Source: an uncultured Gemmiger sp. (GTDB lineage Bacteria; Bacillota; Clostridia; Oscillospirales; Ruminococcaceae). Taken from it: a stretch of 64,000 nt of DNA. The stretch spans positions 110,599 to 174,598 of the forward strand of contig CALXAH010000003.1 in NCBI GenBank assembly GCA_944386225.1, read 5' to 3'. Both the position numbers and the translations under genes were made by a program. The notes under the pieces are model-generated. The model searched no databases and was not told the origin of the DNA. It saw nothing but the letters and a program-made list of their open reading frames with translations. Shown here in pieces: positions 49,780 to 53,141 of the stretch; position 1 is the stretch's first letter; every line of letters begins with the position of its first letter.

Positions 49780-49809
49780 TTGACAGGATACTAAATATGG
49801 TGGCATAAT
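49780..49809 (+). promoter_or_regulatory. Promoter of the ribonucleotide reductase operon
   Basis: TTGACA (49780-49785) and CATAAT (49804-49809) with an 18-bp spacer. A NrdR-box-like site covers the spacer (see next entry). Confidence 0.7.
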
Positions 49810-49898: not shown

Positions 49899-52190
49899 AT
49901 GATCACGAGCATTATGAAGCGTGATGGCCGCGTGGTGCTGTACGACGCGGGCAAGATCGCATCCGCCATCCTGAAAGCCCTGGAGGCCGCCGGCGAGGGG
50001 GACGCCGCCGAGGCCGCCCGCATCGCCAACCGGGTGGAGCGGGAACTGGCGCTGGACTGCGGCGCCAACACCCCCCGGATCGAGCAGATCCAGGATCTGG
50101 TGGAGCGGCAGCTCATGGAATGCGGCCACGACGAGGCGGCCAAGCGGTATATCCTGTACCGGGCCAACCGTACCCGCATCCGGGAAGCCAATTCCCAGCT
50201 GATGAAGACCATCGACGAGATCACCAACGTGGACGCCCGGCTGTCCGACATGAAGCGGGACAACGCCAACATTGACGGCAACACCGCCATGGGCAGCATG
50301 CTGCAGATCGGCACCGCGGGGGCCAAGTCCTACAACGCGGCCTATCTGCTCACGCCGGAGCAGGCCAAGGCCCACCGGGAAGGCGATATCCATATCCACG
50401 ATTTCGATTTCTATTCCCTGACCACCACCTGCACCCAGATCGACATTCTGCGGCTGTTCCACGGCGGATTCTCCACCGGGCACGGTTTCCTGCGGGAGCC
50501 CAAGAGCATCGGCAGCTATGCGGCGCTGGCGGCGATTGCGATCCAGTCCAACCAGAACGACCAGCACGGCGGCCAGAGCATCCCGAACTTTGACTACGGC
50601 ATGGCCGAGGGCGTGGCCAAGACCTTTGCCCGCGCCTACGCCGTCAAGCTGGCCGAGAGCGTGGAGGACATCCTGAACACCGAGGACGAAAGCACCGCCG
50701 CCCGCGCCGCCGTGACCGAGGCCGCCCAGGCCACCGGCCATGGGGCCCGTATGGGCGAGGGGGACAGCGAGGCGGAGTTTGACCGCGTCGCGGCCGAGGC
50801 CCTGGCCCGTGCCACCCGCCTGGATGGTGAGACCGCCGCCCGTCTGGTGGCCACCGCCCGCCGCCGTGCCTGGAAGCAGACCGACCGGGAGACCTACCAG
50901 GCCATGGAAGGCTTTGTGCACAACCTGAACACCATGCACAGCCGCGCCGGCGCCCAGACCCCCTTCAGCAGCATCAACTACGGCACCGATACCAGCCCCG
51001 AGGGCCGCATGGTCATCCGGAACATCCTGATGGCCGAGGACGCGGGCCTGGGCTTCGGCGAGACCCCCATCTTCCCCATCCATATCTTCAAGGTGAAGGA
51101 AGGGGTCAACTACAACGAGGGCGATCCCAACTACGATCTGTTCCAGCTGAGCATGAAGGTCAGCGCCAAGCGCCTGTTCCCGAACTACGTGTTCCTGGAC
51201 GCGCCCTTCAACCTGCAGTATTACAAGCCCGGCCATCCGGAAACCGAGGTAGCCACCATGGGCTGCCGCACCCGGGTGATGGGCAACGTCTACGATCCGG
51301 AGCGTCAGATCGCCTACAGCCGCGGCAATCTGAGCTTTACCTCCATCAACCTGCCCCGTCTGGCCATCGAGGCCCACGGGGACGAGGCGAAGTTCTACGA
51401 AATGCTGGATGAAAAGCTGGAGCTGGTGGCCAACCAGCTGCTGGACCGGTACGAGATCCAGGCGGCCAAGCGGGTGTACAACTACCCGTTCCTGATGGGC
51501 CAGGGCGTCTGGCTGGACAGCGACCAGCTGGGCCCCGCCGACGAGGTGCGGGAGGTGCTGAAGCACGGCACCCTGTCCATCGGGTTCATCGGCCTGGCCG
51601 AGACCCTGACCGCCCTGTACGGCCATCACCACGGCGAGAGCGAGGAGATGCAGCAGAAGGGCCTGGAGATCGTGGGCCATATGCGTCAGTTCTGCGACGA
51701 CAAGAGCCAGGCCATGAAGATGAACTTCACCCTGCTGGCCACCCCGGCGGAGGGCCTTTCCGGCCGGTTCACCCGGATGGATCAGAAGCGGTACGGCACC
51801 ATCCCGGGCGTGACCGACCGGGAATACTACACCAACAGCTTCCACATCCCGGTGTGGTATCCCATCTCGGCCTACGACAAGATCCAGAAGGAAGCCCCCT
51901 ACCATGCCCTGACCAACGCGGGCCACATCAGCTATGTGGAGCTGGACGGCGACACCGCCCACAACCTGGAAGCCTTTGAGAGCGTGGTGCGCTGCATGCA
52001 CGACGCGGGCGTGGGTTACGGCAGCATCAACCATCCGGTAGACCGGGATCCGGTGTGCGGCTATGTGGGCGTGATCGGGGACGTGTGCCCCCGGTGCGGC
52101 CGCCGCAGCGGCGAGGCGCTCTCGCCGGAGAAGCTGGCGGAGCTGCGCAAAAAGTTCCCCACCGTGCCCACCTTCTGCGGCTGCGAATAA
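49899..52190 (+). CDS. nrdD: Class III (anaerobic) ribonucleotide reductase, large piece without the glycyl-radical loop
   Basis: NrdD reduces ribonucleoside triphosphates to deoxy forms under anaerobic conditions. The 763-residue protein has an N-terminal ATP-cone (about 1-90), the catalytic Cys456 in MGCRTRV, RGNLSFTSINLPR, and cysteines at 720, 730, 733, 760 and 762 that likely form the zinc site. It then stops at a TAA without the C-terminal RxxGYL glycyl-radical motif essential for this class. That motif is in the next open reading frame (52278-52424). The body shows no frameshift, so the enzyme appears to be built from two chains. Confidence 0.93.
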   Translation: MITSIMKRDGRVVLYDAGKIASAILKALEAAGEGDAAEAARIANRVERELALDCGANTPRIEQIQDLVERQLMECGHDEAAKRYILYRANRTRIREANSQLMKTIDEITNVDARLSDMKRDNANIDGNTAMGSMLQIGTAGAKSYNAAYLLTPEQAKAHREGDIHIHDFDFYSLTTTCTQIDILRLFHGGFSTGHGFLREPKSIGSYAALAAIAIQSNQNDQHGGQSIPNFDYGMAEGVAKTFARAYAVKLAESVEDILNTEDESTAARAAVTEAAQATGHGARMGEGDSEAEFDRVAAEALARATRLDGETAARLVATARRRAWKQTDRETYQAMEGFVHNLNTMHSRAGAQTPFSSINYGTDTSPEGRMVIRNILMAEDAGLGFGETPIFPIHIFKVKEGVNYNEGDPNYDLFQLSMKVSAKRLFPNYVFLDAPFNLQYYKPGHPETEVATMGCRTRVMGNVYDPERQIAYSRGNLSFTSINLPRLAIEAHGDEAKFYEMLDEKLELVANQLLDRYEIQAAKRVYNYPFLMGQGVWLDSDQLGPADEVREVLKHGTLSIGFIGLAETLTALYGHHHGESEEMQQKGLEIVGHMRQFCDDKSQAMKMNFTLLATPAEGLSGRFTRMDQKRYGTIPGVTDREYYTNSFHIPVWYPISAYDKIQKEAPYHALTNAGHISYVELDGDTAHNLEAFESVVRCMHDAGVGYGSINHPVDRDPVCGYVGVIGDVCPRCGRRSGEALSPEKLAELRKKFPTVPTFCGCE

Positions 52191-52225
52191 GGGTTGCCGC
52201 CGCAACATCCTTTTACCATTCCCCC

Positions 52226-52234
52226 TGCTATACT
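52226..52234 (+). promoter_or_regulatory. Possible internal promoter before the glycyl-radical piece
   Basis: In the 87-bp gap after nrdD, TGC precedes TATACT (52229-52234) inside a small CCTGC/GCAGG hairpin. There is no clear -35. If used, it would let the glycyl-radical piece and nrdG be made separately from nrdD. Confidence 0.4.
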
Positions 52235-52277
52235 AAGCAGGAAACGAGCGAACCATACCTGTGAGGAGGAAAAGAAA

Positions 52278-52424
52278 ATGTCTGCTATGCAAAAACAGTC
52301 GGTCGTGGGCAAGGACGTGCCCTTTGAGCGGATCCGCCGGATCACCGGGTACCTGGTGGGCACCATGGACAAGTGGAACGACGCCAAGAAGGCGGAAGAA
52401 CGCGACCGCGTGAAGCATCTGTAA
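52278..52424 (+). CDS. Stand-alone glycyl-radical domain of anaerobic ribonucleotide reductase
   Basis: The 48-residue protein carries ERIRRITGYLVGTMDKW, the class III reductase glycyl-radical motif; Gly24 would hold the radical installed by NrdG. The following NDAKKAEERDRVKH helix is the usual C-terminal end of NrdD chains. It has its own ATG and GAGGAGG site, begins 87 bp after the nrdD stop and ends three bases before the nrdG start. The NrdD body in this operon lacks this part, so this is probably an essential subunit and not a spare part like YfiD/GrcA for pyruvate formate-lyase. Confidence 0.85.
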   Translation: MSAMQKQSVVGKDVPFERIRRITGYLVGTMDKWNDAKKAEERDRVKHL

Positions 52425-52427
52425 GCC

Positions 52428-52937
52428 ATGCGGATTGCAGGACTTGCCCACGACAGCATCGTGGACGGCCCGGGGCTGCGTCTGACGGTGTTTTTTCAGG
52501 GCTGCCATCATCATTGCCCGGGATGCCAGAACCCCGCCACCTGGCCCTTTGAGGGCGGCGAGGAGTGCACCGTGGAGCAGCTGGTGGCGCAGGCAAAGAA
52601 AAGCCCCCTGTGCCGGGGCGTGACCCTGTCGGGCGGGGAACCGTTCGATCAGGCCGCCGAGGCGGCACAGCTGGCCGCGGCACTGAAAGCCGCGGGGTAT
52701 GAGGTGGCCGCCTATACGGGGTTTACCTTTGAGCAGCTGCTGAACGCCGACGAGGATCGCCGGGCGCTGCTGCAGAACCTGGATGTGTTGGTGGACGGGC
52801 CGTTTGTGCAGGCGGAGATGAGCCTGGAACTGCGGTTTCGCGGAAGCCGCAACCAGCGCATCCTGAACGTCCCCGCCAGCCTGGCCGCCGGCCAGGCCGT
52901 CTGGGTCACCGCTCCCCGCTGGGTAGGCGAATCATAA
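52428..52937 (+). CDS. nrdG: Anaerobic ribonucleotide reductase activating protein (radical SAM)
   Basis: NrdG uses a 4Fe-4S cluster and S-adenosylmethionine to form the glycyl radical. The 169-residue protein has the cluster motif CHHHCPGC (CxxxCxxC, about residues 26-33), the GGEPF loop and DVLVDGPF. Length fits the family. It begins three bases after the glycyl-radical piece, its presumed substrate. Confidence 0.96.
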   Translation: MRIAGLAHDSIVDGPGLRLTVFFQGCHHHCPGCQNPATWPFEGGEECTVEQLVAQAKKSPLCRGVTLSGGEPFDQAAEAAQLAAALKAAGYEVAAYTGFTFEQLLNADEDRRALLQNLDVLVDGPFVQAEMSLELRFRGSRNQRILNVPASLAAGQAVWVTAPRWVGES

Positions 52938-52943
52938 ATTGCT

Positions 52944-53141
52944 AATATGGGGGATATAACATATCCCCCATACCCCCAGAAATCGAGGGCCAAATACTTG
53001 GCCCTCAGGATATAATATAAAACAAGGCCGGTGCGTAAACGGATTACGCACCGGCCTTATCTTTTGTCTTATCCCCAGGGCCGGAGTATTCCGGCCCAAT
53101 TTCCGGGGGGCATGGGGGGAATCGTTGATTCCCCCCATATT
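52944..53141. repeat. MITE-like element: two inverted two-hairpin halves around a terminator
   Basis: The ends are inverted copies of AATATGGGGG. The left half has a C/G hairpin (52946-52972), CCCCCAGAAAT and a second hairpin (52985-53006, loop ATAC). The right half is the inverted version: hairpin 53078-53097 (loop GTAT), ATTTCCGGGGGG and hairpin 53112-53138. A 15-bp terminator hairpin lies in the middle. It sits between convergent genes. No open reading frame is inside, so any transposition would depend on another element. Confidence 0.65.
53024..53058. terminator. Bidirectional terminator between nrdG and dnaJ
   Basis: A perfect 15-bp stem (53024-53038 with 53044-53058) with a five-base loop, in the middle of the MITE-like element. 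Confidence 0.7.

Follow-up and report, generated by a model that had tools for sequence, protein, structure and literature searches.

A putative two-chain class III ribonucleotide reductase in Gemmiger, with the glycyl-radical loop encoded as a detached 48-residue protein

Pyruvate formate-lyase is served by separate radical cofactors, YfiD/GrcA and Y06I, the latter of T4 origin. In the accessible part of their paper, the YfiD authors regard only these two proteins as validated, both for pyruvate formate-lyase, and consider spare parts for other glycyl radical enzymes possible (PMC8683613); oxygen cleaves such enzymes at the radical glycine, according to an excerpt of a further study (PMC12288474). 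For the ribonucleotide reductase (RNR) NrdD, the cycle as outlined in the available excerpt has the radical domain flip out, NrdG make the radical, the domain return and a thiyl radical form (PMC12662201), and the accessible sections on the Prevotella copri enzyme place that domain at residues 676 to 739 (paper numbering), with the zinc site first, then the Gly711 loop and then the tail (PMC11226230). Here we analyzed an nrdD locus in a 64,000-nt stretch of a Gemmiger sp. contig (the window; all locus coordinates are window positions, + strand), which on sequence comparison very probably encodes a working class III RNR whose Gly-radical loop and C-terminal tail form a separate 48-residue subunit.

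The genes run in the order nrdD, small open reading frame (ORF), nrdG on the + strand, flanked by a promoter-like site on the 5' side and a terminator-like hairpin on the 3' side. The coordinates, lengths, start, Shine-Dalgarno (SD) site and 87-bp gap given in an earlier note on this DNA were all re-derived unchanged, and the central parts are as follows.

49899..52190, +: nrdD body, 763 amino acids, with ATP-cone, NRDD barrel, Cys456, zinc-knuckle motif and a 28-residue tail that has no Gly loop (profile and alignment)
52056..52097, +: zinc-knuckle motif of the nrdD body, residues 720-733, Cys 720/730/733 (invariant in alignment A1; zinc binding predicted from 8p23)
52104..52187, +: nrdD body tail, 28 residues (RSGEALSPEKLAELRKKFPTVPTFCGCE), similar across truncated bodies and possibly a decayed radical-domain remnant (sequence comparison)
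52191..52277, +: gap between nrdD and the small ORF, 87 bp, with no further in-frame stop
52265..52269, +: ribosome-binding site GGAGG of the small ORF
52278..52424, +: detached glycyl-radical protein, 48 amino acids, Gly24 in RITGYL (profile; own start and SD)
52428..52937, +: nrdG, radical S-adenosylmethionine activase, 169 amino acids (TIGR02491 above cut-off)

The nrdD body matches PF13597 at 611 bits (above the curated cut-off), PF03477 (ATP-cone) at 78 bits and NF005497 at 1076 bits, and the 562 positions of PF13597 are tiled by the body (1-531) and the small ORF (532-562), which bears out the earlier observation that nrdD stops short of the Gly loop and that the 48-residue ORF supplies RITGYL. 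The Gly-radical loop does not lie in the same chain as the NRDD barrel; it is encoded by a separate ORF with its own start and its own SD, a stand-alone radical-domain protein that matches PF13597 only and not the pyruvate formate-lyase-type PF01228. The active-site Cys456 (MGCRTR) is invariant across the 40 rows of alignment A1, as are the three cysteines of the zinc-knuckle motif (720, 730 and 733), including in full-length relatives; the Prevotella NrdD has four in the aligned stretch. The nrdG product scores 138 bits against TIGR02491 (cut-off, 126). Aligned to the deposited chain 8p23_A (Prevotella NrdD; chain numbering, 4 above that of the paper), the body reaches residue 705 and the piece covers 707-739, one residue apart; because the zinc site precedes the Gly711 loop in the solved NrdD, the large chain keeps the zinc-site region, whereas the small one takes over the Gly loop and tail. 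A check for a full-length NrdD elsewhere in the same genome had been proposed, and our PF13597 search of that genome (99.83% complete) found no second NrdD.

Truncated bodies and detached pieces occur together across genomes. A search with the NrdD family covered 61 genomes, namely that of the window and 60 relatives, and gave a match in 59, of which 21 carry a truncated body (G022 also has a full copy) and 38 carry full-length nrdD only (fragments included). Of the 21 truncated-body genomes, 20 carry the piece, the exception being the 55% complete G018, versus 4 of the 38 others (G012, G016, G021 and G043), an association with a Fisher P of 7e-11 that is optimistic, as the genomes are related. 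In 18 of these 20 genomes the piece follows the body within ~500 bp; in G017 and G032 it is on another contig. A phylum-wide draw of 149 genomes, in which truncated bodies were picked by eye among the matches listed, yielded at least 8 further truncated-body genomes from seven genera, all 8 with a piece, although the scores in G064 and G107 fall short of the family cut-off (21.9 bits); G192 combines a truncated body and piece with a full NrdD, and G201, whose NrdD lies on two contig-end fragments, was excluded from the truncated count. Pooling both surveys gives a piece in 28 of 29 sampled truncated-body genomes, the phylum-wide part again being among the matches listed. Three of these genomes (G135, G168 and G196) have a different zinc motif and a different piece sequence, with an activase-like ORF (assigned by its CxxxCxxC motif alone) near the piece in G135 and G196; judged by these motifs, detachment occurs also in a second NrdD type. 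To the earlier question of whether the piece always sits between a truncated nrdD and nrdG, the answer is no, as it can be on another contig or, in G135, beyond the activase-like ORF.

A scan of a genome collection with the 48-residue query, which biases the sample toward likeness to the query, returned among the best 80 of 552 relatives 20 full-length enzymes, 39 pieces with an upstream body and 21 pieces with no body within 3 kb, some of the last at contig ends. Among named isolates, body and piece occur in Scatolibacter rhodanostii and Gemmiger sp. An87, and Adlercreutzia agrestimuris has a piece and no body nearby. Unusual arrangements were also seen. One locus has a tandem pair of detached pieces between a single nrdD body and nrdG (L074:2941-3553); in another (L079:4826-5658), the piece and nrdG are preceded by just 39 residues that match the end of an NrdD body (zinc motif and tail), the rest of the 10-kb locus giving no body match; and in G030:C62:850-2813 nrdD lies in two overlapping frames (profile 1-196 and 196-562) that reach the profile end, possibly through a frameshift.

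Three rival explanations of the locus were weighed. An assembly artefact or chance small ORF has a practically negligible probability and is ruled out by independent genomes, since the identical arrangement recurs in all three further genomes searched from the genus (G001-G003), in Gemmiger sp. An87 and in dozens of further assemblies; the possibility raised earlier that the stop and gap are assembly errors is contradicted by these relatives. Read-through or recoding of the TAA, which would give a single 841-residue chain, draws on the fact that in the window nrdD and the small ORF share one frame, their sole separator being the TAA at 52188-52190. For the window alone, then, the claim that a single stop could not explain the arrangement fails, but it is rescued by the frames and stop codons of the relatives. 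Among 59 nonredundant body/piece pairs (68 rows, minus 3 with no parsable body [L030, L051 and L092], 5 duplicates and L219, left out as its radical domain is in the body frame; a start is present in all 68 rows), the piece is offset from the body frame by 0, 1 or 2 in 23, 20 and 16 cases, the body stops are TAA in 34, TGA in 19 and TAG in 6, and the gap ranges from -11 to 483 bp (median, 49). The pieces start with ATG in 57 pairs and GTG in 2, are 44-62 residues long in 56 of the 59, and have an SD-like motif upstream of the chosen start in 59/59, a motif that partly guided the choice of start; one offset-2 case (L035) is in G003, from the same genus as the window. On these frame statistics we reject read-through as exceedingly improbable. 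A pseudogene, with nrdD inactivated and DNA precursors coming from another reductase, is also very improbable. A weak class I/II-type match in the window genus speaks for it, but the 763-residue body and nrdG are intact and the codons of the piece are conserved: the window and An87 pieces differ by 16 synonymous and 0 nonsynonymous bases, and among seven piece sequences (the window's included) nonsynonymous differences number at most 2, a codon pattern of strong purifying selection on the small ORF.

Other reductases bear on the same question. PF02867, the class I/II RNR domain, has no match in 10 of the 20 genomes with truncated body and piece (G007, G014, G017, G024, G031, G032, G034, G039, G048 and G052); setting aside G048 (a second NrdD) and G024 (86% complete), the two-chain NrdD is the sole RNR detected in the other eight, each at least 90% complete. 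Because synthesis of deoxyribonucleoside triphosphates (dNTPs) is essential and no other RNR was detected there, the detached radical domain should be functional in these eight relatives, which likewise counts against a pseudogene. The earlier proposal that a truncated NrdD is served by a second, radical-bearing chain thus has good support from co-occurrence in 20/21 genomes and, among the matches listed, in 8/8 more, from codon conservation and from the genomes in which no other RNR was detected.

Pieces also occur beside intact nrdD, mostly in a long form of ~85-102 residues in which an N-terminal domain precedes the radical domain and which mostly has no nrdD nearby. Pfam and NCBIfam scans of the piece and of this N-terminal domain returned nothing beyond NrdD C-termini, and an AlphaFold model of a long-form piece (mean predicted local distance difference test score [pLDDT], 62) gives the N-terminal domain a beta-alpha-beta-beta fold at modest confidence. 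The long form accompanies intact nrdD in G012, G016 and G021, a piece does so in G043, and a more diverged long form does so in G091, G106 (two copies), G130, G163 and G197; in G017, G032, G087 and G123 the long form is the only piece for a truncated body. The YfiD-like role raised earlier is suggested more directly by the pieces coexisting with intact nrdD than by the window genome, where the piece has no intact full-length NrdD partner, only the truncated nrdD. Two long-form homologues from two genera, L242 (G087:C4) and L243 (G192:C6), keep the N-terminal domain and PFxRIRR and have no Gly loop; these radical-less relatives are perhaps regulators or placeholders.

Viral sequences carry pieces as well. 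In a scan with the 48-residue query, the piece stands alone in 50 of the best 80 of 234 viral contigs, the nearest 3 kb being free of a body; 6 of the 80 loci escaped the motif filter. Whole-record search of 30 viral records found a piece and no NrdD body in 28, and a body in L148 and L169, where one had already been seen near the piece; such records may be incomplete, and in a tree the L148 body falls among bacterial ones, so that some may be host sequence. Neighbors, checked at three loci, include a terminase, portal and anti-repressor (L182), an endolysin (L183), and a tail fiber and holin-like protein (L163). An SD-like motif precedes an in-frame start in 29 of 45 distinct stand-alone viral pieces, versus a background of 9.5% per ATG, in a loose test that offers each piece several starts. 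In the isolated Eggerthella phage EL753P1 (L246, OP172808.1:1092-13169), nrdD bears a LAGLIDADG/intein-like insert and ends after the zinc motif, with no Gly loop, and a radical piece, coded over two frames as deposited, follows ~400 bp downstream.

The tails of the truncated bodies suggest how the two-chain state arose. They align onto the radical domain of full-length enzymes (alignment A1), and eleven long tails (39-45 residues), selected after inspection of the alignment, align in register with the radical-domain profile (hhalign P, 0.0019-0.0035), a score reached by 0 of 300 column-shuffled controls. In G032 (FERIKRIR), G017 (SSERVARIKA) and G123 (FERIHRITE), the body breaks off directly ahead of the glycine and the piece is on another contig. 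The simplest history, read from these ends, is probably that a trans-acting piece came first and that the redundant in-chain domain then decayed; gene fission is less likely than such a takeover. The earlier description of a split enzyme therefore stands as regards the radical loop on a separate chain, but not as regards origin by splitting, given the decayed-looking tails and the bodies ending before the glycine. A FastTree phylogeny of 106 bodies (59 truncated and 47 fused) calls for at least 14 state changes, of which well-supported branches require 8 or more, and is compatible with either direction of change and with horizontal transfer.

Several results weigh against the two-chain reading and its proposed history. 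The 20 short tails of the window type show no direct match to the radical domain (P, 0.31 and 0.71); their sole link to it is through the long tails, which they match at a P of 4e-8. Scoring single tails with a hidden Markov model gave no clear signal, with a mean of -3.4 bits versus -6.5 for shuffles (-4.5 once L219, an ordinary radical domain, is left out, with some unscored tails set to -30). When AlphaFold2 modeled both chains as one read-through, the body was good and Foldseek ranked NrdD structures first, but the piece was poor, its ten-residue blocks having mean pLDDT values of 27-60, and docking was unsupported. Finally, the window genus has a weak PF02867 match of 43 bits in an 803-residue open frame, recorded at locus L228 (G000:C7:40361-41176) as a divergent class I/II-type RNR catalytic chain in a 781-residue ORF; the argument from the only RNR detected is therefore not directly applicable to the window genome, and NrdD need not be the sole reductase of that cell.

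In the mechanism we propose, NrdG would install the radical on the small chain, at Gly24; this chain would dock against the large one at its zinc knuckle and barrel, with Gly24 facing Cys456, and catalysis would thereafter follow the usual NrdD route; relative to the NrdD cycle, detachment is, by analogy, the removal of just the covalent link. The contact may be formed by the conserved new ends, GExxSxEKLxELRKxYP in the body tail and GxGVxFERIRRITGYLVG in the piece; a small chain damaged by oxygen could be exchanged, and the in-chain domain would have decayed once a detached copy, like those beside intact NrdD elsewhere, took over. Whether detachment brings a repair advantage is a separate matter. 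Neutral fission or takeover, leaving an obligatory two-chain enzyme with no such advantage, is a possible account to which we give somewhat less than even weight: in 18 of 20 genomes the piece directly follows the body, as expected of a fixed subunit, and an obligatory subunit with no repair role fits the window equally well. However, the repeated state changes in the tree, together with the pieces beside intact nrdD and in viral records with no nrdD, suggest that a free piece can be useful. A further-reaching reading, which likewise has somewhat less than even odds, is an NrdD spare-part system: detached radical domains would serve as free repair proteins beside intact nrdD, would be carried by phages with no nrdD to sustain or restore host dNTP supply, and would repeatedly have become obligatory after loss of the in-chain domain, the part destroyed by oxygen, the window being an end state.

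Additional features of the window locus concern its expression.

49780..49809, +: promoter-like site upstream of nrdD, TTGACA-18-CATAAT (consensus scan; by itself no proof of function)
52193-52206, +: weak hairpin directly after the nrdD stop, in the gap
52191..52277, +: extended -10-like element TGCTATACT in the gap (TATACT at 52229), a possible internal promoter (promoter reading by eye)
53024..53058, +: terminator-like hairpin 3' of nrdG, 15 pairs

The gap hairpin and TGCTATACT make separate transcription of the piece and nrdG possible. The gap element is kept in L034 and L035 with at most one change.

Among described enzymes, P. copri NrdD (PDB 8p23), in the portion of the paper available, resembles the window enzyme in its ATP-cone, barrel, active-site Cys, zinc-site region, RITGYLVGT and nrdG partner, but holds the zinc site, Gly711 loop and tail in one chain, whereas the window enzyme has its Gly loop and tail on a polypeptide of their own (PMC11226230). 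The split class II RNR NrdJa/NrdJb likewise has its catalytic subunit as two chains, but, as far as the accessible text describes it, belongs to another class, has another split point and has no glycyl radical (PMC9669993). Phage nrdD genes with introns or homing endonucleases also have their coding sequence in pieces; in the part of that account available the interruptions are introns, inteins or intervening endonuclease genes, whereas here the pieces are separate genes, sometimes on different contigs (PMC3653736). Closest in kind are YfiD/GrcA and Y06I, which, as their accessible description has it, are small separate radical-domain proteins like the NrdD pieces (PMC8683613), and some NrdD pieces further resemble YfiD/GrcA in having an N-terminal extension and coexisting with an intact enzyme. 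The window piece differs in being of the NrdD type (PF13597, not PF01228) and in having a partner with no loop of its own, so that it would be obligatory. Cleaved pyruvate formate-lyase retains a strand that is duplicated in YfiD and whose removal blocks rescue, according to the same partial source (PMC8683613); in a similar way, a FERI-type segment that recurs in the piece is retained by the three bodies that end ahead of the glycine (G017, G032 and G123).

The spare-part question can now be tested for an enzyme that makes DNA precursors, and a natural two-chain NrdD offers a radical subunit that can be swapped, labelled or mutated alone; to judge by the viral pieces, some phages may bring along a part for host metabolism. 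We found no description of an NrdD radical domain acting in trans in the open-access literature searched, most subscription journals lying outside it. Separate radical cofactors are already known for pyruvate formate-lyase; what appears to be new here, as we found no earlier description, is a separate radical domain for NrdD.

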